From the NCBI GenBank assembly GCA_027186245.1, contig CP114485.1:2046001-2110000 (forward strand): a DNA stretch of 64,000 nt. The letters run 5' to 3'. The notes below the pieces were generated by a model. The model made no database searches. It had not been told where the DNA came from and worked only from the letters and a program-made list of their open reading frames with translations. Shown here piece by piece: positions 1 to 45,800 of this stretch; the stretch's first letter is position 1; every line of letters starts with the position of its first letter. Both the position numbers and the translations under genes were made by a program. Origin of the DNA: Coriaria nepalensis. Its lineage: Eukaryota; Streptophyta; Magnoliopsida; Cucurbitales; Coriariaceae.

Positions 1-3000
1 TGGTAAATGTTGTATTGCAAAATAGAAATGATCGTCTCATTAACATATGGTTGATTAAAGCATTAATATATCATATAACACATTGTATTCCAAATTTTCG
101 CCTCTTTATTTATTGCTGTAATGCCTTTTGCCTTTCTCATTATATATATATATACACATATGTAATTTTCTTTTTTGTCCATAACTGATAGGTCATTGAA
201 ATTCTTAAAAGAATTCCTAAAGAGACAAAAAGAAAGCTCCAAGCTAAAGGATATTTCCCTCAAGATGGATATATCTTGAAGTACTTGCCTATTCCTCCAA
301 ACTGTCTATCCGTGCCTGAAATATCTGATGGTGTTACGATCATGTCATCAGTAAGTCATCCATCTCAGAGTTTCAGGTACCCTTCTTTATTTCTTAATTG
401 GTTTTTATCAACTCGAGTCATGTAATTTTTCTAGGATCCTTCCATATCTATGCTCAAAAAAATTCTCGGGAAAGTAGAAGAAATTAGAAGATCAAGGTCT
501 GGGGATCCAAATTTTGAGTCTAATGAAGTGGAAGCAAATGTTTTACAAGTAGAGGTTTGTAAATATCTTCAACTCAGGGGTACCACCAGATCATCTCGTA
601 GTGTTGATACACACTTTGGGGTCAGTAAAGAGTTAAATGATTCCTCAACAAAAGCATGGCTTGAGAAAATGAGGACCCTATTCATTAGAAAGGGTTCTGG
701 TTTCTCATCCCGCAGTGTAATTACTGGGGACGCTTACACAAAGGTCAATGAGATTGGAATCCCCTTTGAGGTAGCTCAAAGAATAACCTTTGAGGAGAAG
801 GTCAATATGCATAACATTAAGTACTTACAGGAACTTGTGGACAACAAGTTGTGCCTGACCTATCGAGATGGTTCATCAAACTATTCGCTAAGGGAGGGTT
901 CCAAGGGACACACATTTTTGAGAATGGGCCAGATTGTTCATAGGCGCATCATGGACGGGGATATTGTATTCATCAATAGGCCACCGACCACTCATAAGCA
1001 TTCGTTGCAAGCGCTTAGGGTCTACATTCATGATGACCACACTGTGAAGATCAATCCTATCATATGTGGACCGCTAAGTGCAGATTTTGATGGCGACTGT
1101 ATCCACCTCTTTTATCCCCAGTCTGTTTCTGCAAAAGCTGAGGTTATGGAGCTCTTTTCGGTGGAGAAACAACTGTTGAGCTCTCACAGTGGAAATGTCA
1201 ACTTGCAGTTGACTACAGATTCATTGTTGTCCTTGAAGATGATGTTGAGATCGTTTCTCTTTGATAAGGCAACAGCTCAGCAATTGGCTGTGATGGTATC
1301 GTCTTCTCTTCCACCACCTGCTGTCTTGAAGGGAAATTCTACCAAATCTTACTGGACAGCTTTGCAAGTGTTGCAAACTGCTTTACCATCTTCATTTGGC
1401 AGCTTTGGAGAGAGATATTTGGTTAAGCACGGTGAAGTGCTTAAAGTTGAAAGTAGTCAAGAGATATCCACATTGGTGAATGAAATTGTACCCTCTATTT
1501 TCTTTGAGAGAGGTCCTGAAGAGGTTCTCAAGTTCTTCAATTCACTGCAGCCAGTGTTGATGGAGTACATACTCACGGAGGGTTTCAGTGTGGGTCTGGA
1601 TGATTTCTCCATATCAAAGGCTTCCTTGCAAGTTATTGAAGAGGACATCCAAAGCTTGGCTCCTCTTCTTTTTCATCTGAGGACCTCATATAATGAGCTG
1701 GTGGAGATGCAGTTAGAAAGCTACATCCGAGAGATGAAGATCCCAGTGACAAACTTTATTTCAGGGGCATCAGCTCTGGGTTTCCTAATCGACTCTAAAA
1801 GCAATTCAGCCATCAATAAAGTAGTTCAACAGATTGGCTTTCTTGGTATGCAGCTTTCTGATAAGAAAAAGTTTTATTCGAAGACACTGATAGACGATAT
1901 CTCCTCTCTTTTCCATAGTAAATATTCCTCCGATGGACCCAACTCTGCAGAATATGGCTTAATTAAGAGCTGCTTCTTTAACGGGTTGGATCCATTTGAA
2001 GAGATGGTTCATTCAGTGTCTACACGAGAGGTAATCGTGCGCTCATCAAGAGGCTTGTCAGAGCCAGGAACTTTGTTCAAAAATTTGATGGCGATCCTCC
2101 GAGATGTGGTTGTGTGCTATGATGGAACTGTTAGAAATGTTTGTAGCAATTCCATCATCCAATTTGAATATGGGGTAAGAGCTGGATCAAAGACGTATAA
2201 TTTATTTCCTCCTGGTGAGCCTGTTGGGGTGTTAGCTGCAACGGCAATGTCGAATCCTGCTTATAAAGCAGTTCTGGATTCTAGTCCGAGCAGCAATTCA
2301 TCATGGGAGTTGATGAAGGTATTCAATTTTTGGACATTCTTTCTAAAAAGTTTCATATTCCATAGTTTCAACGCATGCACATATGGCTATGCATTTTTCG
2401 TTTTCCCTTATTTTTCCCTTTTCGCAAATGTTGCTTTTAGGAGATTTTGCTTTGCAAGGTCAACTTCAGGAATGAACCTATTGATCGCAGAGTAATTATG
2501 TATTTAAATGACTGTGATTGTGGGAGAAAGTACTGCCATGAGAATGCTGCATATCGGGTTAAGAATCATTTGAAGAAAGTTATTCTTAAAGATGTTGCAG
2601 TGGATTTCACGATTGAGTATGTTCTCTCTTTTAATCGTACTTTCTTTTTTCTTTGATTGATTTTCATGTAAAATTTCCTGTATTGTTGTATATGCAGTTT
2701 TATGTATGTGCAAGTGTGCTGCAGTCCTGACAATGAGAGATCTTATGTTAAGATGTTGTCCAATAATCATTTCTCTGTCACTCTAGTCTATGATGCTTTT
2801 GGTTCTCCAACTAATAATTTCTTGATCTCTCTCTATACAGAATCATAATTATAAAGGGACTTTACATACATTTTGTCATACTTTCATCGTACTACTGATT
2901 TGGACCATTGCTGGACCAAAAAAATAAAACTTCAATACCTTCTTTATTTCAGTAGTGATATCTTGCAGGTATGGGAAACTGCCGACCTCTTGTGGAAGTA

Positions 3001-6000
3001 ATTCAGATGGTTCTGGCCTTGTTGGTCATATTCATCTCAATGAGGTCAGAATGTGTTTCCTTGTTTATAGTTTTTGCTTGCATGTTACCTTCCTATTACT
3101 TGCCACTTTGTAAGATCTATGGTCTCTAAGTTTCTGGTGCTTTGTTTAATAGATGCTACTGAAAGAGTTCAATGTTAGCATTCATGAGGTTCTTCAGAAA
3201 TGCGAAGACACTGTCATTTCTCTCAGGAGGAAGAAGAAGATGCTAGGTCACATTTTCAAAAAAACAATTTTATCTGACAGGTTAGGTTACATTTCCAGAC
3301 GAAATTTTCTCTCTTTTTTGTTTTTCATTAAAAAAAAAATCTTGTAAGATAAGTAAGGCATGTGGGAAGGTTCACAAATTTTGTCAATCAAAATTAACTT
3401 TGGAGCGTTATGTTTTGTAGTCAAAAGCGGTGTTCTGTTTCCAAATATTGTTAGATGACAAGAATTAAATTTCAGCTTTTCATCCTGTTTAATAATAATA
3501 TTGGAAGATAACTTAAACTCCGCATATGCTTCCCTCCTTGCAGTGAATGTTGCTCTACACCTTGCTTGATGTTCTTTTGGCAAGAGTCTAATGATCTTCC
3601 TTCAGCAAAAAGAAAGTTTGCTAACACCATTTGCCCCATATTGCTAGGAACGGTCATCAAAGGTATATCTCATGGAATTTGTGGTCAAGTGGATTTTCTC
3701 ATATATTTGTTATTTGGGCATTGGTGTATCCCGCTATGTATTTCTTGTAATCAAACAAGGAAGTAGTTTAGTATGATCAGGTTTTATTACTGTTAAGAGT
3801 AATAAACATGTTCCCCAACATCTTGATGCTTGATCTATAGTTTTGTTCAGTTGTCTTGTGTCTTGGGAGGCCTGCTTGAGTTCTATCCACCAAATAATTT
3901 TATTATGTATTTAATGATATTATCCTCTGTATTTTACTTGGTTTCAATAATTTAGTTGTATCTAACGTTTGCTGATCATTGCGAGAAACATCTATGTCAT
4001 CAATGGACAGGTGACCCTCGGATCAGAGAGGCAAACATAATATGGATGAGTCAGGATTCAACATGTTGGATCAGAAATCCTAGCAAGTCCCAGAGGGGTG
4101 AGATGGCTCTGGACATTCTGTTAGAGAAATCAGCAGTTAAAAAGAGCGGTGATGCATGGAGGATTGTTCTAGATTCGTGTCTTCCAGTTCTGCACTTAAT
4201 TGACACTAGGCGTTCTGTTCCATATGCGATCAAGCAATTGCAAGAGTTGCTTGGAATTTCTGCCACTTTTGAAATGGCAGTAAAGGTATAACTGAATAAT
4301 CTACCCTTTCTAGCTCATAATGGGAAATAAGGCTACCAATTCCTTGGTGTCCATTCATTTCTGAAAGTCTACTTTTTCTTTCATGCAGCGCCTAGGGACA
4401 TCGGTAACAATGGTTACAAAAGGTGTTCTCAAGGATCACCTTATTCTGTTGGCTAGCAGTATGACCTGTGCTGGGAACTTGGTTGGATTTAATTCTGGTG
4501 GCTATAAAGCATTAAGTCGGGCACTAAATATCCAAGTCCCATTTACTGAAGCAACTTTGTTTGTAAGTAATCAACTCTCTTCTATATTGAGAGGGGGAAC
4601 ATAGTTAAACTTCTGTTTAGATGAACTTCTAATTGTTCTTAACTTTGGCTGTACTTTGTATATGAGTGGCGCAGACACCAAAAAGATGCTTTGAGAGAGC
4701 TGCTGAGAAGTGCCATGTGGATTCTCTATCAAGCATTGTTGCTTCATGTTCCTGGGGTAAACGTGTAGCTGTTGGTACAGGCTCAAGATTTGAAATACTC
4801 TGGGACAGTAAAGAGGTGATTTAGGGATTTGACTTTCTCTTGGATGGGAGCTATTTATTTGGATGTTTATTTTTCTCAACAAGCTTATAATCTCTCTCGC
4901 TCGCTACAGGAGCGTTTCGAGCTAGAGGATGGGGTTGATGTTTATAGCTTCTTACACATGGTGAGAAGTGCTAATGATGAAGAAGCAACTACTGCCTGTC
5001 TAGGTGCAGAAATTGACGACCTTGATTCAGACAATGAGAACAGAGAGTTGGACCGTTCCCCTGATCATTCTGATAAGCTGGTCTTTGAAGATGGAGTTGA
5101 ATTCGAGAATACTTTGAAGAGTCAAACTGAAGGCTCAACATGGGATAATGTTTTGCCTTTAAATACTAGTTCTGTCTGTGATGGAGGGTGGGGTGCTGAG
5201 AAAAATGTAGTGGCAAACAAGGAAAGTGAAAATAATTGGTCTAATTGGGGGAAGAAGAAATATGAGGATAAACAAGATAAAATATCTTCAAGAAATGAAG
5301 AGGATATTTCTTGCTCTGGTGGTTGGGATACCATGGTTTCTGGTGGGACTAACACGGAAGATGATAATGGGTTTAAGGAAACCACAAAACCTAATCCTTG
5401 GTCGAGTAGGGGGACAGATAATTCAGAACCAGAAGAAATCATCCATGCCCATAACCAAGCAGATTCTTCTCTTATTGGCTGGGAAGTCAGGTCTTCCTCA
5501 AGAGCTACTACTGAACCAAAAAATCATTGGTCTGGACAAGAGAAGAACGAAGCTGAATCATATAATGCTCCCTCTGCAGAATCTAGAGAGGATACTTGGA
5601 ATTCTGGAGCTGCCTCTTGGAAGAAAACCAGAGCAGTTGATGCATCTGGATTCAGCAAAAATGACGAGCGGCCTCATACGGACCAACCGTGGGATTCCAA
5701 CAGTTGGGATAACATGGTTATTCCTCAGGAAACAGAAGGTCGGTCAAATTCTTGGAAGAAAACTGAAGCTGGTAATGTATCTGGATTCAACAGAAATAAT
5801 GAGCAGCCTCATATAAACAAAACAACGGAATCTACTGATTGGGATAACAAGGTTGCTCCTCATGAAACAGAAAGCCAGTCAAAGTGGGGATGCGATTCTT
5901 CAACTGTTGACAAGTATCTGTGGGGACAACAGAAGTCACAAGGAACTTCAAAAGGTTGGGGATCTCAGAATAAGTCCTATCAAGCGGAAAGCAAACAGAA

Positions 6001-7620
6001 AGCAGAGGTTTCAGGAGGTTGGGGATCTCAGAATGAGTCTTCTCAAACAGAAAGCATGTGGAACACTCAGGTTTCTCAAGGTTGGGGATCTCAGAATGAA
6101 ACGTCTCAACCAGAAAGCAAGTGGAACACTCAGGCTTCTCATGGTCGGGGATCTCAGAATGAAACTTCTCAACCAGAAAGCAAGCAGAATACTCAGCCTT
6201 CAGGAGGCTGGGGATCTCAGGATGAGTCATCTCAAACAGAAAGCAAGTGGGACACTCAGGTTTCTCAAGGTTGGGGATCTCAGAATGAAACTTCTCAACC
6301 AGAAAACAAGTGGAATAATCAGGTTTCTCATGGTCAGGGATCTCAGAATGAAACTTCTCAACCAGAAAGCAAGCAGAATACTCAGCCTTCAGGAGGCTGG
6401 GGATCTCAGAATGAGTCTTCTCAAACAGAAAGCAAGTGGGACGCTCAGGTTTCTCAAGGTTGGGGATCTCAGAATGAAACTTCTCGACCAGAAAGCAAGT
6501 GGAACACTCAGGTTTCTCATGGTCAGGGATCTCAGAATGTAACTTCTCAACCAGAAAGCAAGCAGAATACTCAGCTTTCACAAGGCTGGGGAGGATCTCA
6601 AAATGAGTCAAAACAGCTGGGAAGTTTGAATGGGTGGGATTCAACACCTGTAGGAGCTAACAATGAAAATGACAAGAATCAGTGGGGACAGCCGGTTGGA
6701 GCACCATTTAACAAGAAGCAGTCAGAAGATTCCAAGGGTTGGGGACCAGCTGGAGACTGGAAAGTTAGGAAAAATCGGCCTCCCAAATCACCTGGACTAT
6801 TCCATGAGGATTCTAATGTCGGGGGAATGTACACTGCCTCAAGACAGCGGTTAGATATGTTCACCTCCGAAGAACATGATGTTCTCACAGAGGTCGAGTC
6901 GGTCATGTATTCTATCAGAAGAATCATGCATCAATCTGGGTAGGATTTTCTCTTTTGCACCCTTGTTTGACTCACATTTTTCCTTTTTTCCTATCATGTT
7001 TTTATTGTTCAATATTACCTTCAAAATTGTTGTTCCTTGTTCTGGGATATTTCCTTGGTTATCTAAAATTCTCAAATTAAAATTCCTGGTGAAGGTACAA
7101 TGATGGGGATCGTCTATCAGATGTTGATCAAACATACATCCTCGAAAAGGTCTTCGATTTTCATCCTGATAAAGCAGTTAAGATGGGCGCTGGAGTTGAC
7201 CACTTCACGGTATACTTTCTTCATAATCGAGTCCTGGCTTGGTTTTATTTTACGTTGTCTTGGTCAATCGTGAATTCTATCTCTCATGTTTCCCCTATTC
7301 TTGTTGGATAATTCATTTTTCACCAAGTGGAATGGTACTCATAATGAATATATGGGAATCGATTATAATTACAGGTAAATAGGCACACCATATTCCCAGA
7401 GAGCAGGTGTTTCTTTGTTAACTCAACTGATGGACGGGTTGAGGACTTCTCGTATCGCAAGTGCTTGAACAGTTTTATAATGGGGAAATATCCGAGCGTT
7501 GCTGAAACCTTCATTGGTAAGTATTGGAAGCCACCTAGAGTGAAACGAGATCCAAGCCCGGTAACCGGAGGGAGCAACAACCCAGTTCCAGAGGAAACCC
7601 AAAAGACATCTGAGTCCTAA
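1..7620 (+). CDS. NRPE1: DNA-directed RNA polymerase V largest subunit (3' part; 5' end outside window)
   Basis: Largest subunit of plant RNA polymerase V, which makes scaffold transcripts for RNA-directed DNA methylation in the nucleus. Predicted exons: 192-350, 435-2318, 2441-2616, 2969-3044, 3153-3280, 3544-3662, 4011-4285, 4389-4562, 4675-4815, 4910-6939, 7095-7209, 7375-7620; positions 1-191 are intron. They join in frame to about 1,840 residues. The catalytic metal site ADFDGDC is encoded near 1081-1100, followed by LFYPQ and LLSLKMML typical of the Pol IV/V clade. The large exon 4910-6939 encodes an acidic, tryptophan-rich tail with about 17 GW/WG sites (AGO hook). The last two exons encode a DeCL-like domain (GKYPSVAETFIGKYW). 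GW repeats plus DeCL distinguish NRPE1 from NRPD1. The N-terminal clamp portion lies upstream of the window. Confidence 0.95.
5954..6616 (+). repeat. 63-bp tandem repeat encoding the GW/WG AGO-hook array of NRPE1
   Basis: Ten head-to-tail units of exactly 63 bp (21 codons) start at 5954 and repeat at 6017, 6080, 6143 and so on, with a partial eleventh at 6584. Each begins with a GWGSQNE-like block and ends near ESKW/Q-xxQ-xS. Units 2-10 form three copies of a three-unit higher-order repeat (189 bp): A = GWGSQ..SSQTESKW, B = GWGSQ..TSQPESKW, C = G(R/Q)GSQ..TSQPESKQ. C units have lost both tryptophans. The length is a multiple of three, so all frames stay open, which produces long spurious ORFs on both strands. 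Confidence 0.93.
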
Positions 7621-18669: not shown

Positions 18670-19869
18670 ATGCTGGGTCTGAGAGATGTTCTCCTAATTG
18701 CTCCAACAACTACAACGACGACGACGACGACGACGACCTCTTCTTCCCTTCATCAACACCCACAACCCATTTCCTCTGATCATCACCACTCAACTCTTCC
18801 TTTGCCCACCACTGCTCTCGGTGTCAGCGTCGGTTTTTTCCCGCTTCTCGCGGCGGCAGCTACGGCCACGTTTCCTTGCGTCCCACAGCCACCTCCTCCC
18901 ATCAACGGCCTCGAAACTGAGCATGCGAGTTCTTCCAACGGTTTTAATAACTATTGGAGGAGCCTGAAGAAAACCCATGAATTGTATTCTTCTGCGAAGG
19001 ATAACTTACAACGACAAATTGTGGATCATGATGGTGGTGGTTTTGGTAGTGACGGTTCTACGAGTGTGTGTAGAGATTGTGGGAACAGAGCAAAGAAGGA
19101 TTGTGGGTATAGGAGGTGTAGGACTTGTTGCAAAGGACGTGGCTATGATTGCTCCACTCACGTGAAGAGCACGTGGGTGCCTGCTGCTCGCCGGCGGGAA
19201 CGTCAGTTGTTGATTGGTGGTGGCGGCGGTGGCGGTGGGTCCTCTGGGTCATCTTCAGGTGGTGCTAAAAGGCCAAGAATTCTAGTGCCATCACAGATTG
19301 CAAATACTACTACGACTGCTAGTACTCCTAGTGCATCTCATGCTTCCACCTCCAATGCTGCTCCTGCTACTACTCCAAGGAGCTTTGATTCTGGCTCTAC
19401 TCATCAAGGTTCTGTCTTTTTCACATATCCTCTGTTTCAGAGTTTATGATGGCACTTGCTACTTAATTTCATAGTTTGGTTAAATTGGGTCTCAATGGAT
19501 TGAGAGGCTAAAAAGTTCAAATGGGCTCTTCCTGTTTTTGCAGATGCTTGCTTTAAACAGTCGTTACCGGGTCAAATATGGGCCCCTGCAGTGTTCAAGT
19601 GTCACAGAGTCTCGGCCATTAGAGACGGTGGAATTGGCGAGTTTGCGTACCAGGCAATGGTGAATATCAGTGGGCATGTATTCAAGGGGTTTCTGTATGA
19701 TCAAGGGGTTGATGACAGGAATGCTTTTCCATGTATTTCACAATTGCATTTGAAAACTAGTACAAGTAGAAGAAGGGACAGGGATTCTTCTTCTTCTTCT
19801 CCTCCTCCTCCTCATCCTTTAATTCTTGCTCCACTGGAAAACTCTTCCCCTCTGCCCACTGAGGATTGA
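18670..19869 (+). CDS. SRS: SHI/STY/SRS family zinc-finger transcription factor
   Basis: Plant-specific SHORT INTERNODES/STYLISH-type transcription factor, nuclear; family members activate auxin biosynthesis genes during organ development. Two exons, 18670-19408 and 19544-19869, give 354 residues. Exon 1 encodes the RING-like zinc finger: [20 protein letters not shown], then CKGRGYDC and [16 protein letters not shown]. Exon 2 encodes the family-specific IGGH region: [32 protein letters not shown]. The finger is preceded by [12 protein letters not shown] and a run of eleven threonines encoded by an (ACN)n tract at about 18708-18735, and followed by a glycine run near 19218-19240. The intron position between finger and IGGH domain is typical. 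It is convergent with the PIP5K gene. The exact paralogue cannot be assigned. Confidence 0.93.
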
Positions 19870-31192: not shown

Positions 31193-32598
31193 ATGAAAAC
31201 TCTCTTAAGCTTCTCACTTGTCTTGTTCCTCTTCAGCTTCTGTCAAGTGCAAGGGCTCGGACCCAAATCATGCGAGGTCCCAGACCAGAGTTCGACCCTC
31301 CAAGTGTTCCACGTCTACAGCCCATGCTCACCATTCAGGCCTTCCAAGCCACTCCCATGGGCAGACTCTGTGCTTCAAATGCTGGCCAAGGACCAGGCCA
31401 GGGTCCAGTACCTGTCCAGTTTGGTAGTAACCAAGAAAGCAGTGGTGCCCATTGCCTCTGGCAGGCAGATTGTTCAGAGCCCAACTTACATTGTACGGGC
31501 CAAGATTGGATCACCGGCCCAGACCTTCCTTGTGGCCCTTGATACCAGCAATGACGCCGCTTGGATTCCTTGTTCCGGCTGTATCGGCTGCTCCTCCACC
31601 GTATACTCGCCCGCCAAATCTACTACCTTCAAGCCTCTTCCTTGCCAAGCTTCTCAGTGCAACCAGGTACTACTTTTTGTACCGCCAATTTAGTACACAT
31701 CGAATGTTATTACTATTAATATTATTATTGTTATTATTAATTAACATGCACGTGACATTTTCAGGTACCGAACCCCACTTGCGACGGCAGCGCTTGCGGT
31801 TTCAACCTAACTTACGGCGGGTCCTCCCTGGCCGCCGATCTAGTCCAAGACACAGTCACCCTCGCCACCGACCCTGTCCCCGGGTACACCTTCGGCTGCA
31901 TCAAAAAGGCTACTGGCAGCTCACTGCCACCCCAAGGGCTATTGGGCCTGGGCCGAGGTCCGTTGTCGGTTTTGTCCCAAACCCAGGATCTATATAAGTC
32001 CACCTTCTCCTACTGCTTGCCCAGCTTCAAGTCCGTTAACTTCTCGGGCTCATTGAGGCTTGGGCCTGTTGGGCAGCCCATTCGAATCAAGTACACTCCG
32101 TTACTGAAGAACCCGAGAAGACCGTCGCTGTATTTTGTGAACTTGATCGGAATCAGAGTCGGGAGAAAGATCGTGGATATTCCTCAAAGCGCGTTGGCAT
32201 TCAACCCTACCACCGGCGCGGGGACCATAGTTGACTCCGGGACCGTGTTCACTAGGCTAGTGACGCCGGCGTACACGGCGGTGAGGGACGAGTTCAGGAA
32301 GCGAGTCGGCCGGACCGCCGCCGTGTCAACCCTAGGTGGCTTCGACACATGCTACAACGTACCGATCGTTGCGCCGACGATGACATTCATGTTCGCCGGG
32401 ATGAACGTGACACTGCGGCCAGAGAACTTGCTGATCCACAGCACAGCAGGAAGCACAACGTGTCTGGCGATGGCGGCTGCCCCGGACAACGTGAACTCGG
32501 TGCTGAACGTGATAGCGAATATGCAGCAACAGAACCACCGGTATCTGTTCGATATTCCGAACGGGAGGCTGGGGGTGGCGCGTGAGCAGTGCTCTTGA
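31193..32598 (+). CDS. AED3-like apoplastic aspartic protease (A1 family, nepenthesin-type)
   Basis: Secreted pepsin-like protease related to Arabidopsis AED3, an apoplastic protein linked to systemic immunity. Two exons, 31193-31666 and 31765-32598, give 435 residues. A signal peptide (MKTLLSFSLVLFLFSFCQVQG) is followed by a propeptide region. The first catalytic motif is ALDTSNDAAWIPC, with DTS in place of the classical DTG. The second is IVDSGTVFTRL. Cysteine-rich nepenthesin-type insert CSGCIGCSS, GLLGLGRGPLS, FSYCLPSF and C-terminal NMQQQNHRYLFDIPNGRLGV are all present. The DTS variant is shared, as I recall, with the AED3 subgroup, so it does not indicate decay. The reading frame is unusually GC-rich compared with its neighbours. 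Confidence 0.92.
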
Positions 32599-34594
32599 TT
32601 CCTCCTTTTTTGTGTTAATTTCAATAATTACTCGTAATCCGTTTCCGTCACGTGCTTAATTTTCAGTAGATCTGGAGTCGTGTTTAATTAATCCGTCAAG
32701 GTTAAATTCTATTATATGGTTAATATATTAATATTAATATTAATATTTATTAAGATTAAGATTAGTGAGTCGAGTAAGATTTTATTAGGAATTATTAGGG
32801 AGCAATGACATCATTTTATGGTTTTCAATTTTCATAGTAATCAAATCAATCACGGGCCTTGTATGAGTAGAGTAAATATTTGGTCACGACTTTAAATGAC
32901 ACCGACAATAGTAAAAGCAAAAGATTGGATTGATACTTTTTTCTTTCTAAGACAATGCTCGTGAGAATATTCCTTTGGCTATCTCTCACATCAAGGAAAG
33001 ATGCTGTCTCTAAGTTAAGCCGCAAGTCGTAACAATGTAATTAGTTACTGTCTTATCAAAGCTTCTACCTATATTATATATATATATATATATATATACA
33101 TCCATATATACATATATACACATATATGCTGTAAATTCTAAAATGTCAAAGAGAAATCATTTAGGTGCACTGTTTTCGCCAGGTAGGAAAAGCTTTTATC
33201 TTACTTTCAAGTTTCAACTAAGCATCCCATCAGATCGTGATATCCATCTGGTCTAAAACGAATCCTTCCAATCTTGGCAAAGTTTCTGCAATAGCTCAGT
33301 TGGCCAGAGCGTGTTCTGTTAACCACGGTGTTGTTAGAGGTTCGGGTTCTCCTTCTAACGCAATTTGTTTTTTTTTGACAAAACATTGAAGAAATAGTAT
33401 GCAAATTTGTTATATGTGTTTGATCAATAAATTATTTTTATATGAAGATGATTCATATACTATTTTTTTTAAGGGTTTTCAATAAGTTTGCAGTGTTAGC
33501 AATTGAAGATTTTTTTTTTTTTTTTTACCAGAAGGAAAGCAGTTAAAGGTTTGAAACGAAGAGGGGGGCATCTAGCTAGGCTTGGTCATCAATCTTTGTC
33601 ACTTAACTTTTGTAATCAGCAGGCATGAAATTCCTCTGCCTTGCCTGGCATCCTTTTACTGGTCTCCCAACCAAATGCCCAACCCACAAACCACAAATCA
33701 TATGGGCCAAATTGATGAGGTACTTTCGCAAAAGCCAAATCTTACTCCAAAAAGTGGCAAAACTTTCCCAAGTGGCAATGAATCCCACCCAAGTTTTCTT
33801 TTTATTTATTTTTTCTCCTCTTTCGAAGGAATCTAAAGGGCAGCTAAAGGTACCCGAGTGAGAATAGCACATTGGCGGGTGGAGATGGTGGTAGTGGCTT
33901 TGGCGGTGAATTAGTGATAAGGGAGGGAGAGATAGAGGTGGAAGACAGACCCACGTGACAGACTGACCCACCACCCGCTTGGCCCCACTGGATGTCTTAG
34001 TTGGCTTCCTATCAACGCTAACAGCCAAAATAACCCCAACTACAACAATAAAAACTATTACCCTCATCACCAATCATCTGATTCAAACTCATCCCACCGA
34101 TAAATTATAACCAAAATATCTTACCGTTCAATAACCATTATAGCCCTTTGAGTTTCTAATAAGAACCCAACTGCTCCCCTCCTTCCTGGTTATGGTTAGT
34201 GGTTACTGCTTAATGATGTTCTTTACCACCCTGAAAGTGCAAAAAGGAGAAGTAATCAGGTCTAAACATCATTCATCCATTCATTTGACAAAATTTTGAC
34301 GCTTTCTCAGTTGCCCACTAACTCACTCTCTGCCTTTTCTTATTTTCTTTCCCCCAAATGCGAATGCTAGTGGCTTTCTGTCTCCACTATGCCTTCTATG
34401 GCTTCCTCTCTCAGCCTTTGATTGGCCCACTAATGCTTTGAGCATCTTTTTCTCTATTTCTTCCTTTCTCTAATGCTAGTGCTTCTTTTTTCCTCTCTGC
34501 ACTTTCTTACTTGCTTCAACTTTCATTGGATTGTGTAGTAGAAGATGTTAGCAGCTAATTATTAACTAGGCCTAAACCCATAGTATGGGGAGAG
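32599..34594. other. Intergenic between the protease and trihelix genes
   Basis: About 2 kb without a protein gene. It includes an (AT)n microsatellite at about 33072-33099, poly(T) tracts near 33364 and 33511-33530, and the tRNA-Asn-like relic listed separately. Confidence 0.5.
33285..33360 (+). pseudogene. Degenerate tRNA-Asn(GTT)-like sequence
   Basis: The D arm (TAGCTCAGTTGG and CAGAGCG), the anticodon loop CTGTTAACCAC with GTT, and a T arm with GAGGTTCGGG and a 3' acceptor half CTTCTAACG all occur in tRNA order and spacing, closely matching plant tRNA-Asn. The 5' acceptor strand (before AATAGCTC) no longer pairs with the 3' strand, the upper anticodon stem has lost a base and the T stem carries a mismatch. 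It is best read as a tRNA pseudogene or tRNA-derived fragment. An in-line poly(T) follows at about 33367-33375. Confidence 0.7.
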
Positions 34595-35765
34595 ATGGAC
34601 AAAGAAACTAACCAACAAATCCCATCTCTCCTCCCTAACAATAACACAGCCTCCAAATTAGAAGACTCCCCCAGAAAACCCGGTGGTGGTGGTGGTGCTG
34701 CTGCTAGTGGCGGCGTTAGCGGCGGCGACAGGTTGAAAAGAGATGAATGGAGCGAAGGAGCGGTTTCATGTCTACTTGAAGCATATGAATCCAAATGGAT
34801 TTTCAGAAACAGAGCTAAACTTAAAAGCCATGACTGGGAAGATGTTGCTCGCTTTGTTTCGTCGCGAGCAAATTCCTCAAAGTCCGGTAAAACGCAAACG
34901 CAGTGCAAGAACAAGATCGAATCCATGAAAAAGAGGTACAGATCAGAGTCTGCAACCGCCGATACGTCTTCGTGGCCTTTGTATCCGCGTCTTGATAATT
35001 TGTTACGCGGAACTAGCCAACCACCACCAGCTGTGCTACTGCCGCTTTCACCACCTCCGCCTCCGCCCGATCATGATCTCCCTTCTATTATGCTCCTGGA
35101 AACGTCGCCTTCACCAGCGCCACCACTACCTGCTCCACCGGCTCCAGCTCCTCCAGTTCTTGGACAGACACAGCACTCCCACGGTTCTAACGGAATTGAC
35201 AGGATGGCGAAGGTCAGAGTAAAGAATAACCTACTGGTTAAACTTCCTTAAGGCTAGCTAGAAAGATACATGTAGTTAATTGATACAAGGTGTTTAATTT
35301 TAACAGGAAGACGGAGATGGAACCAAATCGGAACATTTATCGGAGAAGAAGGCGATAGAGAGTGACAGTAGCACACCGGTCCTAGCTTACAACGACAAGG
35401 ATAAAAAATGGAGGTCGAAAAAGTACTTGAAGATGAAGATGGAGAAGAAAAAGAGGCGAAAGAGATCGTCATCAGATCAAGATCAAATGGAGATAGCAGA
35501 AAGCATCCGATGGGTAGCAGAAGTGGTGGTGAGATCAGAACAAGCGAGAATGGAGATGATGAGAGACATAGAAAGGATGAGGATCGAAGCAGAAGCAAAG
35601 AGAGGAGAAATCGATCTGAAACAAACGGAAATAATAGCAAATACGCAGTTAGAGATCGCAAGGATCTTTGCGACTAGTGTTGGCAAGACTGGCACCGGTC
35701 CCGGCGGCAGAGGAGCAGGAGGAGGAGGATCTGTGGATTCTTCATTAAGGATTGGAAGATGTTAA
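34595..35765 (+). CDS. Trihelix (SIP1/ASIL-type) transcription factor
   Basis: Nuclear DNA-binding protein of the plant trihelix family, SIP1 clade (ASIL/ENAP relatives). Exons 34595-35212 and 35307-35765 give 358 residues. The N-terminal Myb/SANT-like trihelix is at about residues 48-118: DEWSEGAVSCLLEAYESKW, NRAKLKSHDWEDVARFV, QTQCKNKIESMKKRYRSE, WPLYPRLDNLL. A proline-rich linker follows (about residues 140-195). Exon 2 encodes a basic patch (KMEKKKRRKRS) and a long C-terminal coiled coil (about residues 275-335; MEIAESIRWVAEVVVRSEQA) typical of this clade, used for dimerisation. Glycine and alanine runs flank the DNA-binding domain. Confidence 0.9.
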
Positions 35766-36531
35766 TTGTTACAATTTATATATTAATTAATGAATCAATA
35801 ATTCAATATATAATTAACATTATGAGCTTGAGTGAGAATTTTAACTTGGTAAATAGGCTGTGTAGAAACTTGGTAGGGGTGAAACAATTACGCCTTTACC
35901 TCATCTCATATCATCTCATCTCATCTCATCTCATCTCTTCATCATTAAATCCCCTACTTACAACAATGTCTAATCGGTAACTAGATTGTATGAGATATAT
36001 AGAACAAGCTTTTGATGTTACACAGATTCTGCTGCTGATCTTAGAATTCTAAGGAACAAATGAGGTTAAGAAAGGATTAAGTGCCTAATTAGTTTTCTAC
36101 TTACTACCTAATCTCAACTGTTCTTTTTTCAAGCCGGAAGATCCAAAATCAATCTCACCACGTCAGTTTACTTTTTTACCAAAAACGATTAAAAATAAGC
36201 TGATCTCTCACTCCATAGCCATAATAGGCACTTATTAGGGAATGAATCATTTCTCTACTTTTATAAAGCATGCAAAGTGACGGATAAGTTTTAAAAAATT
36301 TCCACATTCACCCACTGAATAATAATATTAATCAGAAACATACAAAATAATTATGTGCTATATTTAGATGTTATATCAAAGATGCTGAGTAAACAAAACC
36401 CAATAATAGATATAGATATAGATATATACACTATAATACTATACGTATATAATAACTAGGGTCGAGGCTGGTGATAATGATATGATGCAGGTGAAGATCT
36501 TCAGCCTGAGCAAAACCCCTAATCCCCAATT
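35766..36531. other. Convergent 3' flanks of the trihelix and TFIIIA genes
   Basis: No coding signal. A (TCATC)n microsatellite of about seven units lies at 35901-35940, and a GATATA run at about 36407-36425. Confidence 0.5.
35901..35940. repeat. (TCATC)n microsatellite
   Basis: About seven copies of a five-base unit with one interruption, in the 3' flank of the trihelix gene. Confidence 0.85.
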
Positions 36532-39050
36532 TTACTCGGCATCCTGATCAAAAAGGAAATCAAACTGACTAGGCGGGGTGACTCTCTTCCGTACAAGCAT
36601 TTCTACTGTTGGGCACTTTCTCTTTCTTCCGCCCCTTGGCCTTGACCGGAATTGCTCATCAGACTCTACGAAATCCCCCTGATTTCAAGGATTTCAAACA
36701 CGATGCAACTCTTAGCATGCCACACCCTCATGTAAGAAACACTGGCCTACTTCTATTATAATTTCATCAGTAGCATGTTTTTGAAAAATAAAACACTTAC
36801 AATGGTATAAACATGGGACCCAGATTTCTCATGGTTATCTCGAACATGCTTGTGGGCAAAGCTCATGCCACAGCCAGAGAATTGACAGGTAAAGGGCCTA
36901 AGCTCGAGGTGCACAGCTTTCACATGTTGTCGAAGATTTGACATCTATGTAATGTAGCAAAGCAAAAGCAAATGTAATTAGACTATCGACTCACAGCATT
37001 CACGTTTGTACCTAAATCTAAATATAGAAGAACAGTTCTTTATCAGACTCACATATATAACATCTTACCGTTGAAAACTTGTGAAGACAATTCTTGTAAT
37101 TGCACTTAATTCTCTCCGATGGACCTTCCGACTCATGTGTGTGAAGGTGTCGATTTATGTTCTTTTTCAACTGCTTGCATCCACATATCTCACAGTTGAT
37201 GTACCGATGGCTGGATTGGATGTGGGCCATTAGGCATTTGTTATTGGTAAAATATTTCATACAACCAGGTTCCGCACAGAAAGCCTCTATTGATTCTGGT
37301 TTCACTGCAGTAATAATTGCAAGGATTCATATAAGAAACGTGGTAGTTATATGACATATATCCATCAAGTAAAGTAATTTTGTGGGGGTAATAGCATATA
37401 CACATAACGAAAAAGCATAATTTGAGAGCTTGATGAACTTGCCATGGGAATCCTCATGCTTTTTCAGCTTTGATGCATATTTGAACACCTTTCCACACCC
37501 ACGTTCTTGGCAGACATGCTGCTTCTGATCCTTCACAATAGGGGAAGAAGGATTGTTCTTGTGAAACTCATCCACGTGCCTTTTCATGCTGCCTTGGTAT
37601 GCAAACTCACAGCCACAGGTCTCAGTTGGACATTTAAAGAGTTTTCCTTCATGCTGAAGAAGGTGGCGGGTCAAATGATCCTTTCTTCTGTAGCTGGAGT
37701 GACAATCATCTACTGGACAAGTATATGGTCTCTGCCAAAATTTATTCAAGTTAGAATCTCACTGTTCTTCATTTTTTTTTTCAGGAAAAGAAAAAAAAAA
37801 GAGTCCTAACATTGTAAGATAAGAAAACTAGGCTTCAAACCTCAGAATAGAGAATTGCGTGATTGAGGCTCACTTGAAGGAGCTTCTCAGGAGGTCTCCC
37901 TACCTGGTACTAATCCATTCAAGTCAAAACATGCAGCCTCATGCATTTTGGAGTTCTATCTTTGGGATCCAATGCGTCACGCCACATAATTTACTACAGC
38001 ATTTTTTTTCAAATTATAAAAAAATTGAACAACATTTGTCCCTGCAAAAGTATCCATCTTTTAATAAATGTGAACCACATTAAGTACTATATAAATAAAG
38101 AAAATAGAAGCTGTATTAGCAATATCTCTAAGTATAGTAACAAAAGTAGATTAAAGTTGGCTCGATAGCGCTTAATCAGTCACAAACCTAAGCTACTAAA
38201 CACGTAAAACCCAGATGTCAGGAAGACAATTCTACAATATTAGAATTTACAACGTTACACTTGCCCATGTATCACCAACCATGGAAAATGTATAAAATTT
38301 CCAGTGTTTTGGCAAGGGGAAGAAGCTATACATGTTTACAATCTCACATGCGAACTAAGACTCTTAGCAAGTACCTCAAATGAATGACTTTGCATGTGTT
38401 GCTTTAAATACGCAGGCTTTCTGAAACTTGCGCCACAGTCTTGACAAGTATAAGATTTGGGCCCCTTTGTTTCATTTTCAGATTCACCATCTCCATCCTT
38501 TTCATTTTCCATCATATCCTACAGAGAAATCAAGTCATCGATTAAAATTTCGCCACTCCAGCACGTCTAAACATCTCATCAGAACTAAAATTTACTCTGA
38601 TATTGTCAGATTTGGTACAGAAAATTTTCCTCAAAAACCAGAATCGAGGCTTCCACATGAGCTTCAATATAAGCGCATAAATTCAGATTAAACGAAACCA
38701 TAATTATTAAGAGAAATAAACTGATTAAATCCCTAAGACCACCAAATTGGATTATAGAGAAGAAAATTCAACTTCTTCCCAAACAGATAAATAGAGCAAC
38801 GATAAAAAAGAAACTCAAATCGTTACACTCAAACATAAGTTGCAACAGATCTAATAGATTTTAGAAAATCGCATAGAGAAGGAGAGGGGGAGAGGGGGAG
38901 AGAGAGAGACAATACCTGGTGGTGAGTGAGAGTGTGGGTTGTAATCAGGGACTTCTTAGACCTGCAAATTCCGCAACACTCACAAAAGTAACGCCTTGGA
39001 TTTCCAACACTTGAGTCCTTCGCCCCTTCAAGCTCCGCCGTTTCATCCAT
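36532..39050 (-). CDS. TFIIIA: Transcription factor IIIA (nine C2H2 fingers)
   Basis: Binds 5S rRNA genes and 5S rRNA and is required for RNA polymerase III transcription of 5S rRNA. Coding exons from the 5' end: 39050-38916, 38518-38375, 37731-37443, 37304-37069, 36944-36801, 36678-36532 (1,095 nt, 364 residues). Fingers begin at [11 protein letters not shown] and [19 protein letters not shown]; then [89 protein letters not shown] and [19 protein letters not shown]. The C-terminus keeps the plant-specific [18 protein letters not shown] and VEMLVRKRV blocks. The third intron begins with GC (GCAAGT), not GT. The start chosen is MDETAELEG, which matches relatives; an in-frame upstream ATG at 39188 would add 46 residues. 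The intron 38374-37732 holds a 5S rRNA mimic exon. Confidence 0.95.
37841..37993 (-). ncRNA. 5S rRNA mimic (P5SM) poison exon in the TFIIIA gene
   Basis: On the minus strand this intronic stretch reproduces plant 5S rRNA blocks in order and spacing: GGATCCCA and AGAACTCC (37970-37950), then TAGTAC, AGG, GGG, GACCTCCTG, GAAG and TCCT (37912-37877). It has a usable acceptor (GCTGTAG, ending 37994) and donors at 37840 (GAG-GTTTG) and, inside the mimic, 37903 (CAG-GTAGGG). The upstream exon ends in phase 0, so the first codon of the included exon is TAA and inclusion truncates TFIIIA after its second finger. Known biology: ribosomal protein L5 binds P5SM and causes exon skipping. The exact ends of the exon are inferred. 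Confidence 0.88.
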
Positions 39051-39812
39051 CTTACTCAGAATCTCTCGATTCTGTGGTTGTGCTGCCGGCCTGGTACCGC
39101 GCGAGAAGGAGGATATATACGCATAATTGAGTGCCCTAGGTTTCGGCTGAATTTTTTCGCTGTTCCCGCTTCCAAAAGTTCGGTCCACTTAAGAAGAAGG
39201 CCCTCTCGGATGTTTCTATATTTCCATTCTTGGGCCGTTGATCTAAAATCATCACTTGTGGCCCAATAACCAAATAGAACAAATATTGTAGATATACAGT
39301 AATCAACTGTCACATAATATAATATATAATATAATTTAATTGATATATAAATATTTAAAAAAAATTCTCAAAATTTAATTAAAAAATATAAGAAAATTAA
39401 AGATTAAAATATTTAAAAAAATATTATTATATATATAATATATAAATATATAATAAATTAAATATTATTTTTATTATCACAAACATCAATTTTATTTATA
39501 AATAATATTTATAATCATAATAAAATTTAAATAACTTTTCGTAGATTAAACTCGAGAATATTGTTAGATCAATTTTATTATACAGTGATGCAAGTGGCCA
39601 TGTTGGCTCATGAAAATAACAGCATGGCTAATAGAAAGCTAGAAAAGTCGAACTCTTTTTATACCTTCTCCATCTTTGTACTTCGTTTCATCTATTAACA
39701 GCAAATTTGATCCTCCATGCCCATCTCCAAGCACTTGGTAGTTTTTCATATGCATAGTGCAATGGCAACAGCTTCTTCTGGAAAGGTCCGAGAATAGAGG
39801 GGTCTAAACTAG
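39051..39812. other. TFIIIA promoter and KEG 3' flank
   Basis: TFIIIA 5' flank at its left end, then an extremely AT-rich stretch (about 39310-39560) without genes, then the KEG 3' UTR. Confidence 0.5.
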
Positions 39813-42800
39813 CTAGCTCTGGCCCTCATCAAGTACAATATCAGCAGGATCTCCAACCCATGGTCTACCTTCTCTCCACCGAAACTTAATCCTCAACTTG
39901 CCATTTGCATCGACCCCTACCACTTGTCCTTTGCTTGAATGCGTCTCCATTCCCCATCCCAAACGAGGTGTGACCAGCCCATCTCTGATCCTCACCTTAT
40001 CACCGACTTTGAATGGCCTAACACGCTCCATTTCCCCTGCCTTGCAAAGCCATAGTCTCTCCACAAAGCAGAATGCTACCCAGAGTTCTCCATCCTCCAT
40101 GCGGTGCACCACCCCGATGCTTGATCGGTTCACCTCTCCCCAATGGTGGGTTGGGATTGAAACTGATGCCTTCACTCGGACCCAGTCTCCAATTCTAAGC
40201 TCCTCTTCTTGTACAACCTCCACTTCTGTTGGATCTAGCATCCAAGCTTTCGAGCCAGCTGGAGTATAGATCCTCAGCTTTCCATCAGCGTCAACAGCTG
40301 ATATTATTCCAATGCTCTCATGGCTGTGGCCTGACCAAGAAAATCTTGGTTGCTTCACTGATAATTTAACCTTTACCTTCTGTCCAACCATCAGCCTGTC
40401 AACCCTTTCTAGATGGGAAGTAGGGCCGTTCCAACTTTCTTGCTCCCTGCAGAAGCCAACAAAAGTGCTTCCATCCCATACATCTCCTTCATAACCTATG
40501 CCTTGAACCACGCCAATACAACCTAGGCCAACAGATTTCCAGTCGCTTGCATTCCCTCTCAATCTTACCCACTCTCCCACTTCAAACATCTGTTCTATCT
40601 CAAGGTCAGCAGGATCCCCTCTCCATAGCCCATGTGAGCCCGAGAAAGCAACCCTTACTTCTCCATCAGCCTGAACACTGGTTATAACACCACGTGAATC
40701 AGGTTGAACCCCTCTCCAACCCCACCTTGGCTCGGCTAGACCACGACGAAATCGAACATATTGTCCAACTTTAAGGCAGAGAACCTTCTCAACATCAGAA
40801 TAGTGAGTTATCCATCTACCTTTGCGGAAACAGCAAGCCAACTCTAGATAACCAGTGTCTTGCACACTATGTACAACTGCTAAACTTTCTTTCCCAATAG
40901 TATTCCAGTCATAGCTAGGTCTAGTTCCCAGACTCGGTTTCGAACGTACCCAGTCACCAACTTCAAATCCTGATAGTCGATCCACATCTCCAGGAGAAAC
41001 TTTCCACAAGCTTCGTCTTCCAGCCACCTTCGCCTAAATAAAAATGATAAAATCCAATATAATTAGGATCAATCAGGAAAAAAAAAAAATACATAAATAT
41101 ATTTAGATATTCCAATTCAAAGGACAAGGATCCTAGACATTACCACAGAATATATAATCAGGGTGTTTTATGGTAGCAACAATTACCATCGAGGGAATAG
41201 GCTTACAATCACAAACATTTTAGCAACTAAGGGAAAATACGAAAGAAATATAATCGCAATCACTTGTTTTGAAAAGTATTGCTAAGCTTAGCAAATGGAA
41301 ACTCGTGGTCGATAATAAGTTGATTCAGGAAACAGATAAATAACAAAAGAAAAAGAAAGGGAAGATTAAACAAGCACATAAGCACTTAATTCAAGAGAAG
41401 TTGCCAGAAGACTCAAATATAATAAAACAAACGTCAAAAAGCTAAAACATAAACATGGATCTTGTAGCTCACATAAATGATTTGTGTGATGATTGTGGGG
41501 ATAACATTTACATTGGAGCTACTCACTACCATAATCAAAATATATAAAAATGATGAGTATGCTCACATTTAATGCCCCATCCATGTCGATTCTAACTATT
41601 TTTCCAATTGTAGCTTGACTTTCATCAGACCATCCAAGTCGTGGTTGAGTAACTGATGGCAGTATGTGTATCTCTTGCCCCACCTCAAAAGCGGACACCT
41701 TCTCCACATCTGTCACAGAGCAAGGAAAAGGCTTGCTCCTAAAGCAAAAGGCAATGCCCATGTCACCATCCTCTTCTAAGCTATGTATTATCCCAATGCT
41801 GTTTTTGGTAACATCTTCCCACCCATATTTCGGAGATGACACTGAAGACTTCACTCTAACCCAATCACCAACCTGCCCATGGCAGATTAAAACAATTTAT
41901 AAAGAAGAAGAGGACTAAGAGTGAATCATGGATCTTCAAACCATCATGATATAAGAATGAACATTCATGATTTACCTTGAAATCTTCCAACTTTTCCATG
42001 TCCGATGGATCAGCTTGCCATGGTATTGGTCTATTGGGTATTTCAATTATGAGGAGACCATCACTCTCTATCTCACATATTCTTCCAACACTATGATGAG
42101 TCTCACCACCCCAAGCATATCTAGGTTCTGCAACAGATCGCTTGACGCAAACACAGTTACCAATCTGTAAAGCCAGAATGATTTTAGTGTCCGGAGAAGA
42201 AAACAACCGAAATTTTGAGCTAAATATCAACATGTCCACCCAAAAAAGTTCCTGGATAACTCTCTTACTCTGAAAGGGACAACCGGTTCCACCTCCTCAG
42301 GTTCACAATGCCATGGATTTGGAAGATAGCTCAATTCTAACAACAAACTGCTGTCAGGTCTGATACAATACACTATACCGATGCTTCCGGGGGTTACAGA
42401 TCCTAATCCATGCTTTGCCATTGTAAGAGCAGGGCGGATACGAACCCAGTCTCCAACCTTAAATTCTTCGACTCTTTCCATTTCTGCAGGATCAGCTTTC
42501 CACCCTCTGGATGCTCCAGGATAACCAACTCGGAGGATCCCATCATCATCAACGCATAAAACAGTACCAATGCTCTCACGTGACTGCCCACGCCATCCAA
42601 ACCTAACATATCAGAAATTATGTAACCTCAATAAGGATGCAAGCATGCAGGTGTTGTTACAGAGGCATATAGACCAAACATAGGGCGTGGACAAACACAC
42701 AACTTGGCATACAGAACAAAACCTGGGTTCTTTGAAGTCAGGCTTCAGTTGCACATGTTGTCCTCTATCCAACGGAATGACTTTTACAACATCGGTGACT

Positions 42801-45800
42801 GAAACACGAGTATCTACAGAGCCCGAAACACGAGCATCTCCAGAGCAAAATGAGACAATGAGACTGTCCTTATCTTGGACGCTCTGTACAAAGCCAACAC
42901 TCTTATGTTTTGCACCTTGCCACCCATAAGTAGGAGTTGTGACACTTCTTTTGAATTTAATCCAATCTCCCACTTCATATCTGTAAGATAAATTTATTAG
43001 GTAGTGATATTAGAATAAAAAGAAAGCTTTTAAACATATGCAAAACTTTACGGTACTAGAATGTAACTCTTTTTCTTACATTGTAGGTGATAGATGAACT
43101 CCCCTTTCAACCAATGCCTCCATCAAATCTTCAGAAATCCATTCTCGGGGAAGAGTTTCAAGAAAATCACGTAATGTCTTGCCACTGCCAAAGAATATAG
43201 ATGAATTTTGCGAAAAAGGTCAGTTCTAACATAGAGTTCCTCAAATGGTAGCATTCTATCGGAGTTGGAATTCTATTCTATTGACGGTTCCTATGGTTCA
43301 GGAGGATTCAGTTGTGGAAAAACCAGAAACTAACACCCCCCCCCCCCCTAAAACACATCTTTTATTTTTTCTGGTTGCCTCTATGTATGGATGAATGAAT
43401 ATGGTAAAAGATGAGAATTTCTTGAGAAAGAAATTATAATCCATACAGAAAACTAAGCCTTCCCACGTGACTTGCCTGTGGTTTCTCACTTCAACAGCAG
43501 CATCAGAGTTTTTAAGCATGACAATTAGCCACTCAAGATTCTCACGTATCATTTTGGCTGCATCTGCTGCAATATGTATAGCATTATTACCTTCATCATC
43601 CTGAAAACAATAAACAGGAGCTTACTTAATACTCATTATTGAAAGGAAGGGAAATTGGCTTGTCTTGGTTAGCAAAGAGGGAGGGAAGCAATTATATAAA
43701 TAAATCTGAATTTGTTTCTACTATTATAATTATTCAGTTATTCCAACTACTTTCCTAGTGAAGAAATATCTAAACTTTGACCCGATCTTTGATGACCGGA
43801 ATTAAAAACAAGAAAAAGATTACCATATGCTGAAAAGATTACCTAACCAGAAAGAACAATTACTTTTTAGAGAGAGGGACTCATTGAATGTGAACAAACC
43901 TGCATGTTATAATTCGCCCCAGAAGCAAGAAGAAATCCAACACATAAGTTTGCCCCTCTAGTTAATGCAACATGAAGGGGTATTGCATTGTGCGCACTCT
44001 GGATGTTCACATCCACTCCAGTATCAAGAATAATCTATTCATATGTTTATAAAAAGAGAAGTAAAGAATAAAGAAGTAATAACTCATAAATCAAGAGAGA
44101 ATAATGAAATAGCTGCATCAATAAACGTAGAAATTCGAGTAGCCAATTTAGTAAAGAAAGGTAAGTAGTGGTGGTAAAGAGGTAAGCTATTCTGCATACC
44201 TTAACCAACTCAACATCATTAGCCATCGCAGCAGTATGCAGAGCTGTCCGCCTGTGATGAGCATCCTGTGCAGTTGGATCTGCTCCAGCAGCGAGCAGTA
44301 TCTGTACTAATTCTCTTCCCTCTATGAGCAACATTGGAAAAGAATGAATGACATGATTACGACATACAGACGAACAGAAGATCAAATTAAAATTTTTATT
44401 GTATAATCTGGCATAGATATACTGACCCACAACATAGATACTGAACAGGGTACAGTTTTAATATCATAACCAACTTACATATAACTAGAAGACATACTAG
44501 TATCAACAAACATGAAACGGTATATTATCAAACTACATTTACAGTTTCATGACAGAGAATGAATTGATAATTATCTGAACAGTGTAATCCACTGTATCAA
44601 TAAAGAGTTTTAGAATTACCACTTTCATGGCCTTTCTTTAGAGCAGCTGCCATGCACAATGCAGTTCCCACTGGGGATAATATATCGATTGCATCAGCAA
44701 TCTCTTCATGAGTTGCAACTTCCACCCACCTTTTCACAACAGCCACATTCCAAGTAGCCACACACAAGTGCAATGGTCTGAGACCCAAAAAAATTTCTTT
44801 TTGAAATTTGCCGAAAAACAATTACAAGAAAGAGATGGTCTAAAAGATACATACTCACTATTGCAAAGTCATTTAAGAGATGAAAGAGCACAAAGCGACA
44901 CAGATGCCCTATGGATAGTATAAAAGTACCCAGTACGCACAAATGCAAAGTCACTTTGTGATATGAATGAACAGAAAGCCACAGATGAAGCAGCTGAATA
45001 TGAAACAGAAGAATTTACACTTACGTCAAGTTTTTTGAGTTCGGGATGGCCATTGACCTACAGCCTCCATTTTCCAGTATGACAAGAGCACAGTCAGTAT
45101 ATTTCTTGGTCACAGCTCTGTGCAGTACAGATTCACCCTCATCATCCACTGCATTGGGATCTGCTCCAGCCAATAACAACTCCTATTTGTTTACAACAAA
45201 AAAATCAAATTTTGTGTGAGAAAGTGAAGATGTAGAAATGAAAGAGGAAAGAGACAAGGGTATGCAAAGTGAAAAAGTCAGAGGAAGAGAATTATGAAAT
45301 CTTTTAAGTTAACTAAAGACCTACACGCATGCAATCAGGCTGGCCATGGTACGCACAAACATGAGCAACGGAGGGACCAAAACCTTCTCTCAACCCCGAT
45401 CTGACATTGGCACCTCTTTCAATGAGAGTACGAACACATTCTGGGGATCCTGCAGCTAATGCGAAAACAAGTGGTGGATCGCCATCTTTGTCCAAAACAT
45501 CAACATTTGCCTCCCTGTACTCCAAAATAGCTTCTAAGAGATCTGCACTACCACGTCTACAAGCTAAGTGGAGAGCTGTTTGTCCATCACCATTCTGAGC
45601 TTCTAACAGTGAAGGGATCGGGCTGCTACCGTTTCTCGATGCAGCTTTTGCAAGCAGATCTCTGCATAAGCAAGGAAAGTATAGGTAGGAGATAGCATGT
45701 AAGTTTTCATTTTCAAGAGAATTAAGGCCCTCCTCTTAGCTTAGCTTACAAAGGTTTTTATTGAATCAACTCACCTAACACGACTAACATCCCCACCAGA

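Follow-up and report, generated by a model that had tools for sequence, protein, structure and literature searches.

A 5S rRNA mimic (P5SM) in intron 2 of a TFIIIA gene of Coriaria nepalensis, kept in two gene copies

Is the 5S rRNA-like sequence in an intron of a Coriaria nepalensis TFIIIA gene the splice-regulating 5S mimic of plants, and how does it compare with the 5S rRNA genes of the same genome? P5SM, the plant 5S rRNA mimic exon of TFIIIA, was reportedly described by Hammond et al. 2009 and Fu et al. 2009. The available part of PMC12218528 counts it among a small number of plant RNA structures known to control splicing in cis. We analyzed a stretch of 64,000 nucleotides (the whole stretch is called the window here), taken from a genome of 316 Mb that is spread over 20 contigs. 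The identification of the element in TFIIIA intron 2 as a real P5SM, which an earlier note on this DNA had proposed, is well supported and was borne out by its position, sequence and fold, by pieces of it in the proteins of relatives and by a second gene copy. The window P5SM belongs to an already known plant device, kept here in two gene copies.

The host gene lies on the minus strand, with six coding exons from 39050 to 36532 and a product of 364 residues (Table 1). Nine C2H2 fingers were counted by eye in the protein, and its Pfam matches were to C2H2 families only; the junction between the finger 2 and finger 3 exons reads SFE/RPYTC. The top plant TFIIIA relatives, Reevesia, Juglans, Corylus and Alnus among them, are 69-71% identical to it (best 120 of 516 related proteins). 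In a protein tree built from 51 relatives plus both copies of the window species (53 rows, with no Cucurbitales row among the relatives), the two TFIIIA copies sit on a long branch next to rows of Rosales and Fagales, with a support of 94/86. Intron 3 (37443..37442, minus strand) was seen to start with GC (ATG/GCAAGT) in both paralogues.

Table 1. Coordinates of the TFIIIA gene, the mimic and its candidate splice sites in the window.
Feature	Position	Strand	Basis or remark
TFIIIA coding exon 1 (zinc finger 1)	38916..39050	-	splice sites kept in paralogue
TFIIIA coding exon 2 (zinc finger 2), phase 0 at its end	38375..38518	-	matching splice sites in paralogue
Intron 2, host intron of the mimic, 643 bp, between the finger 2 and finger 3 exons	37732..38374	-	
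TFIIIA coding exon 3 (fingers 3 to 5), then GC donor	37443..37731	-	paralogue comparison
TFIIIA coding exon 4	37069..37304	-	
TFIIIA coding exon 5	36801..36944	-	
TFIIIA coding exon 6, including stop	36532..36678	-	
Putative (likeliest) acceptor of the mimic exon, TTTTGCAG, followed by base 38041	38042..38049	-	identical in paralogue
First-proposed 3' splice site, TGTAG	37994..37998	-	lost in paralogue
5S mimic core, predicted three-way junction	37855..37984	-	MFE -41.2 kcal/mol, z -2.85, 0/200 shuffles; ends picked after viewing folds
Helix III/loop C block, GGATCCCAAAGATAGAACTCC	37950..37970	-	alignment and fold
In-mimic ATG GAT TAG, frame closed	37910..37918	-	also closed in paralogue
Loop E/helix IV block, TAGTACCAGGTAGGGAGACCTCCTGAGAAG, ordinary angiosperm 5S type	37883..37912	-	alignment, covariance models
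Donor GT of CAG/GTAGGG, strongest U1 match in the intron	37902..37903	-	-11.2 kcal/mol; kept in paralogue
Donor GT of CAA/GTGAGC	37872..37873	-	-4.6 kcal/mol; kept in paralogue
Distal donor GT of GAG/GTTTGA	37839..37840	-	-5.0 kcal/mol; kept in paralogue

Five minus-strand 5S blocks had been listed earlier, in this order: GGATCCCA, AGAACTCC, TAGTAC, GACCTCCTG and GAAG. All five were located in that order, and the coordinates agree with a position inside the 643-bp intron between coding exons 2 and 3. In local alignment the intron scored 61 against Arabidopsis 5S (a typed-in reference sequence) and 45 against the 5S of this genome. The best of 784 equal-length window tiles scored 40 and 38 against the same two sequences, and the best of 1000 dinucleotide shuffles scored 38 and 40. 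Since the intron score was reached by 0/784 tiles and 0/1000 shuffles, the 5S likeness is more than chance. The loop C and loop E blocks presumably also agree with those of P5SM. The mimic shares with 5S rRNA (RF00001) the sequence and order of helix III/loop C and loop E/helix IV; it differs in that its helices I and II are replaced, it lies within a protein gene and it scores 14.5 instead of 38 bits in Rfam.

The covariance scan, which the earlier note had named as the test that could overturn its reading, came out formally negative with Rfam: no family matched the window at the gathering score, RF00001 included. This negative carries little weight, because no P5SM-named family came up among the matches and no more than parts of 5S are preserved in the mimic. 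The sub-threshold 5S match lies at 37915-37880, in the right place and on the right strand, at 14.5 bits against a gathering score of 38 (E 5.1 with 701 bases searched, 1.2 with 166 bases searched). A custom covariance model was built from six 5S sequences, one typed and five of the genome's own. It gave a single match at E<=10 in the 64 kb, at 37916-37879, with an E of 0.11 that is weak alone; at the paralogous locus the same model again gave a single match, in the corresponding place, at E 0.017 (77,020 bases searched jointly). Only the loop E half of the mimic scores in covariance models.

The 130-nt core (37984-37855) is predicted to fold into a three-way junction with an MFE of -41.2 kcal/mol and a z score of -2.85, and 0/200 shuffles were as stable; the z score is somewhat favoured, as the core ends were picked after viewing folds of the 153-nt exon. 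In the predicted structure, a closing helix pairs 37982-37977 with 37862-37857, the helix III/loop C arm pairs 37975-37968 with 37952-37943, and the equivalent of helix IV pairs 37906-37903 with 37891-37888. The loop E arm has AGUA (37911-37908) opposite GAA (37886-37884). A longer stretch of 161 nt gave two separate hairpins instead (z -1.46, 17/200 shuffles as good). The MFE pairs of 37993-37841 are all still pairable in the paralogue (43/43), two of them through a change from A-U to G-U. Position 37907 is C in the window, opposite A37887, and U in the paralogue, where a U-A pair results.

The fold was also compared with the pieces found in the proteins of relatives. Under automatic codon placement, 98 of 204 pair cells were forced, 82 were possible and 24 were impossible; we judged that these misfits came mostly from one misplaced apple-family alignment piece and a bulge shifting one base. 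Hand placement, for which six of the 43 pairs were dropped first (37918-37878, 37933-37925, 37932-37926 and three of the 37852-37841 hairpin), gave 104 forced, 78 possible and 3 impossible among 185 cells. All three impossible cells fall on pair 37924-37872, which is A-C in three other sequences. Two-sided covariation is thin, with one case at the same pair, where A-U is G-C in a Malus copy.

A search of the 316-Mb genome with the 153-nt stretch returned two matches at E<=0.001, the stretch itself and one on contig C1 (96%). The C1 match sits in an intact TFIIIA gene with corresponding splice sites, and the region is collinear including the neighbouring gene. TFIIIA exons were found at two loci by protein search of the genome, together with one weak other match (32%, C2). 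The two copies differ by a dN of 0.044 and a dS of 0.275. The neighbour of both TFIIIA genes is one that we take to be KEG-like. G000:C1:57156000-57165900 (L011) is a collinear duplicate of 32072-43133 of the window, with the KEG-like and TFIIIA genes and with pieces of 84-93% identity, which points to a presumed whole-genome or segmental duplication.

The two copies were then used to estimate constraint, with gap columns excluded from all counts. Introns differ at 168/1127 positions (14.9%), coding exons at 87/1095 (7.9%), the stretch 37993-37841 at 8/153 and the mimic core 37974-37873 at 3/102. The core has changed less than the introns (Fisher p 1.3e-4) and less than the coding exons (Fisher p 0.04); its bounds are our own choice, and the whole 153-nt stretch, given alongside, has changed less than the introns (Fisher p 3.0e-4) and is not clearly less divergent than the coding exons (Fisher p 0.15). 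When a 102-nt window was slid over the gene, 40 of 3299 positions had <=3 differences, and all 40 start in 37984-37934. These divergence counts and sliding windows indicate that the constraint on both mimic copies roughly equals or exceeds that on the TFIIIA protein.

Translated mimic pieces were found between fingers 2 and 3 or, where the gene model begins within the mimic, directly ahead of finger 3, in annotated TFIIIA proteins of Gossypium, Hibiscus, Citrus, Populus, Salix, Prunus, Malus, Argentina, Trema, Ziziphus, Oxalis, Camellia, Rhododendron and Ipomoea. Twenty pieces were selected for mimic-like words or through searches with such a piece, a sample that shows homology and not the frequency of the mimic; the best window match was within the mimic for 20/20 of them, the three frames taken together (E 7e-12 to 0.015). 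The bases fixed by the genetic code were identical to the window at 553 of 608 positions in 17 hand-placed pieces, which is a favoured figure, as it covers 17/20 pieces, several of them partial, where they are gap-free (P0045, P0069 and P0125 were left out). Because the relatives show the mimic in different frames, the conserved thing appears to be the RNA rather than the peptide. The observed range of this conservation is the paralogue and the translated pieces from selected eudicot proteins. The Malus domestica TFIIIA proteins P0089 and P0091 carry two tandem mimic pieces between fingers 2 and 3, which look as if P5SM had been duplicated in the apple lineage.

For the exon itself, a 153-nt form (37993-37841) had been proposed between an AG at 37995-37994 and a GT at 37840, with an alternative GT at 37903. 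All three sites are present, the stretch is indeed 153 nt and begins with TAA when read in the exon 2 frame, and both donors are conserved in the paralogue; the proposed start at 37993 is less well supported by the paralogue, where the acceptor at 37994 is absent, and the list of donors lacked 37873. The sequence ACTTTTGCAG/GGACAA around 38042 is identical between the TFIIIA copies and the paralogue has lost the AG at 37994, so the mimic exon probably starts at 38041 rather than at 37993. The frame read from 38041 meets a stop at codon 11 in the window and at codon 8 in the paralogue equivalent. Inclusion brings in a premature in-frame stop from 38041 as well as from 37993; the exceptions are the 63- and 69-nt forms, which are open.

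At the other end of the exon, the U1 duplex at 37903 (-11.2 kcal/mol) beats those of the five other donors of the gene (-3.9 to -8.2). The U1 scores of 37873 and 37840 are no better than those of several other GTs in the intron. By reading, an exon end equivalent to 37873 occurs in one Hibiscus and one Oxalis gene model. The inner donors lie in predicted stems, with an ensemble mean unpaired probability of 0.23 at 37903 and 0.08-0.09 at 37873, which is mostly paired. In the longest stretch folded, the distal donor had a mean of 0.22 and acceptor 38042 one of 0.36. As modelled, the hiding of donors by the fold is not specific, the distal donor being as paired as 37903.

The best explanation, with a probability of about 85%, is that the element is the P5SM exon of TFIIIA and forms an L5-governed splice switch that tunes TFIIIA; L5 binding, the route to skipping, the use of the exon and the decay or other fate of the included form are what we infer for this locus. 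If the exon is spliced in, the reading frame would end within it and no full TFIIIA would be made. L5 without 5S rRNA would bind the mimic, the exon would be skipped, and the nine-finger TFIIIA would give more 5S rRNA. With L5 occupied by 5S rRNA, inclusion of the exon would take over and TFIIIA would fall. Skipping may come about if L5 holds the 5S-like fold with donors 37903 and 37873 base-paired, which is our own proposal, or if L5 displaces a splice factor, as has been proposed for engineered P5SM and is drawn in PMC4538838. L5 binding to the mimic in TFIIIA pre-mRNA, exon skipping and the premature stop of the included form are reported in the available parts of PMC6164485, PMC4538838 and PMC5568362; decay of the included form (NMD) is doubted in the review PMC6164485. 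L5-family genes are present in the genome. The best L5-family match (G000:C9:9286363-9286824) follows the model without a break over a long stretch, contains a TAG and is perhaps a retropseudogene; further matches were seen on C8, C12, C13 and C19.

The open 63- and 69-nt versions raise the alternative that the included form codes for a second protein, which we consider unlikely. Such a protein could be a nine-finger TFIIIA with an insert of 21 or 23 residues (longer with YQ in front), for which the internal AG at 37904 or 37910 would serve as the acceptor, or a seven-finger TFIIIA made from a later start. Both paralogues have these versions in frame and free of stops, and inserts of 21-28 residues are found in cotton, poplar, willow, Citrus, Trema and Rhododendron gene models; these models, however, may be program guesses that favour open frames, and the internal acceptors are without clear pyrimidine tracts. 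A seven-finger TFIIIA protein has been reported from Arabidopsis and Nicotiana, and PMC6164485, as far as its available text goes, gives both views of its origin, direct translation of the included mRNA and protein cleavage. The translation start of TFIIIA-7ZF is not stated in the available parts of PMC8909551, PMC10178017 and PMC8617911. One cotton and one Hibiscus isoform model start at an AUG inside the mimic (MNQYQVGRPP and MDQYQVGRPP), in a frame that would give seven fingers. The same frame is closed by TAG in both copies of the window species, and the next in-frame AUG, located by eye, is in finger 4 of the window TFIIIA and in finger 6 of the paralogue. Since both copies close the frame, a seven-finger TFIIIA in this species could not start at the in-mimic AUG. 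The closed frame is a natural test of direct translation against protein cleavage as the source of seven-finger TFIIIA. By back-translation, read by eye, the Malus copy P0103 may also have a T at the place of this TAG, so the closed frame may not be peculiar to the window species.

Could the mimic be kept as an RNA element for a reader other than L5, for instance TFIIIA binding the loop E of its own pre-mRNA? We hold this to be quite improbable. The available text of PMC6164485 has TFIIIA binding 5S at loop E, helices I, III and V and loops A and B, but it also gives loop C and helix II as the L5 site, and PMC4538838 names L5 as the regulator. Covariance models still pick up the loop E/helix IV block; loop C, however, is well kept too.

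Intronic 5S-like DNA can come from 5S-derived SINEs or pseudogenes, and the Rfam score is low, but a functionless 5S pseudogene or 5S-derived retroposon that arrived by chance in the intron of this lineage is very improbable and was rejected, given that the 316-Mb genome holds two matches only (E<=0.001), which occupy the same position in the two TFIIIA genes, that the core diverges less than the introns, and that TFIIIA proteins of other eudicots have homologous pieces at the same junction.

The mimic was also compared with the genome's own 5S genes. Eighty complete copies, recognised by their loop C word, were read from eight loci (L001 to L008) of one array on contig C16; 47 of 8251 first-look 5S candidates were scored, all 47 of them on C16, so that the copies read are the smaller part of the genome's own 5S. 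Helix IV is TGAGTTGG(G)TGACCACTCGGGA (TGAGTTGGGTGACCACTCGGG type) in 60 of the 80 copies, and the other 20 are close variants. The ordinary helix IV TAGGATGGGTGACCTCC was present in 0/80 of the copies read from this one C16 array. Genome-wide, a 22-base ordinary helix word was absent at <=2 mismatches and a 21-base one had no exact match, both searches having the array loci as their only positive control. By reading, the change in the genome's own 5S is compensatory, from CTAGGA/TCCTGG to CTGAGT/ACTCGG. The mimic retains the ordinary CAGG..CCTG helix IV. The helix IV region is also part of the internal promoter of 5S genes. In a literature search for both helix IV types, the short ordinary word appeared in primers for Brassica, for Elaeagnus and, deduced from Beta, for Canavalia in the available parts of the papers, and the changed word was found in no paper.

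A tentative reading, to which we give slightly less than an even chance, is that the mimic, as sensor, and the 5S rRNA that it copies have diverged: helix IV of 5S would have been rewired and both mimics would have stayed ordinary, with the loop C and loop E cores nearly identical. If the switch still works, L5 control would depend on the loop C arm and perhaps on loop E, and not on helix IV. Its frame being closed in both copies, the in-mimic AUG would not be the source of any seven-finger TFIIIA in this species, which would bear on the debate about the origin of that protein. Two mimic-bearing TFIIIA genes, together with host 5S copies that differ from the ordinary type mainly in one helix, amount to a natural mutant for asking which part of 5S is read by the L5 switch.

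The window element has in common with plant P5SM its place in a TFIIIA gene, a 5S-derived exon and a stop after the first two fingers on inclusion. Several exon lengths, which the candidate donors would allow here, are also reported for soybean (PMC5568362, available part). Three points appear to set the element apart: the window species has two TFIIIA genes, each with a copy of the mimic; helix IV of the window mimic is ordinary and that of the host 5S copies read is changed; and the AUG frame in the mimic is closed by TAG. The HyP5SM suicide-exon cassette shares the model of default inclusion of a stop-bearing exon and L5-driven skipping; according to the available text of PMC4538838, HyP5SM was derived from plant P5SM and engineered for rice L5.

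Elsewhere in the window, a gene at 450..6943 (plus strand) has a long tail of GWGSQNE repeats. Its product is presumably a largest subunit of the Pol IV/V type, from an RNA polymerase specific to plants. The ORF at 18670..19449 (plus strand) has what we take to be a cysteine-rich SHI/LRP1-like zinc finger.
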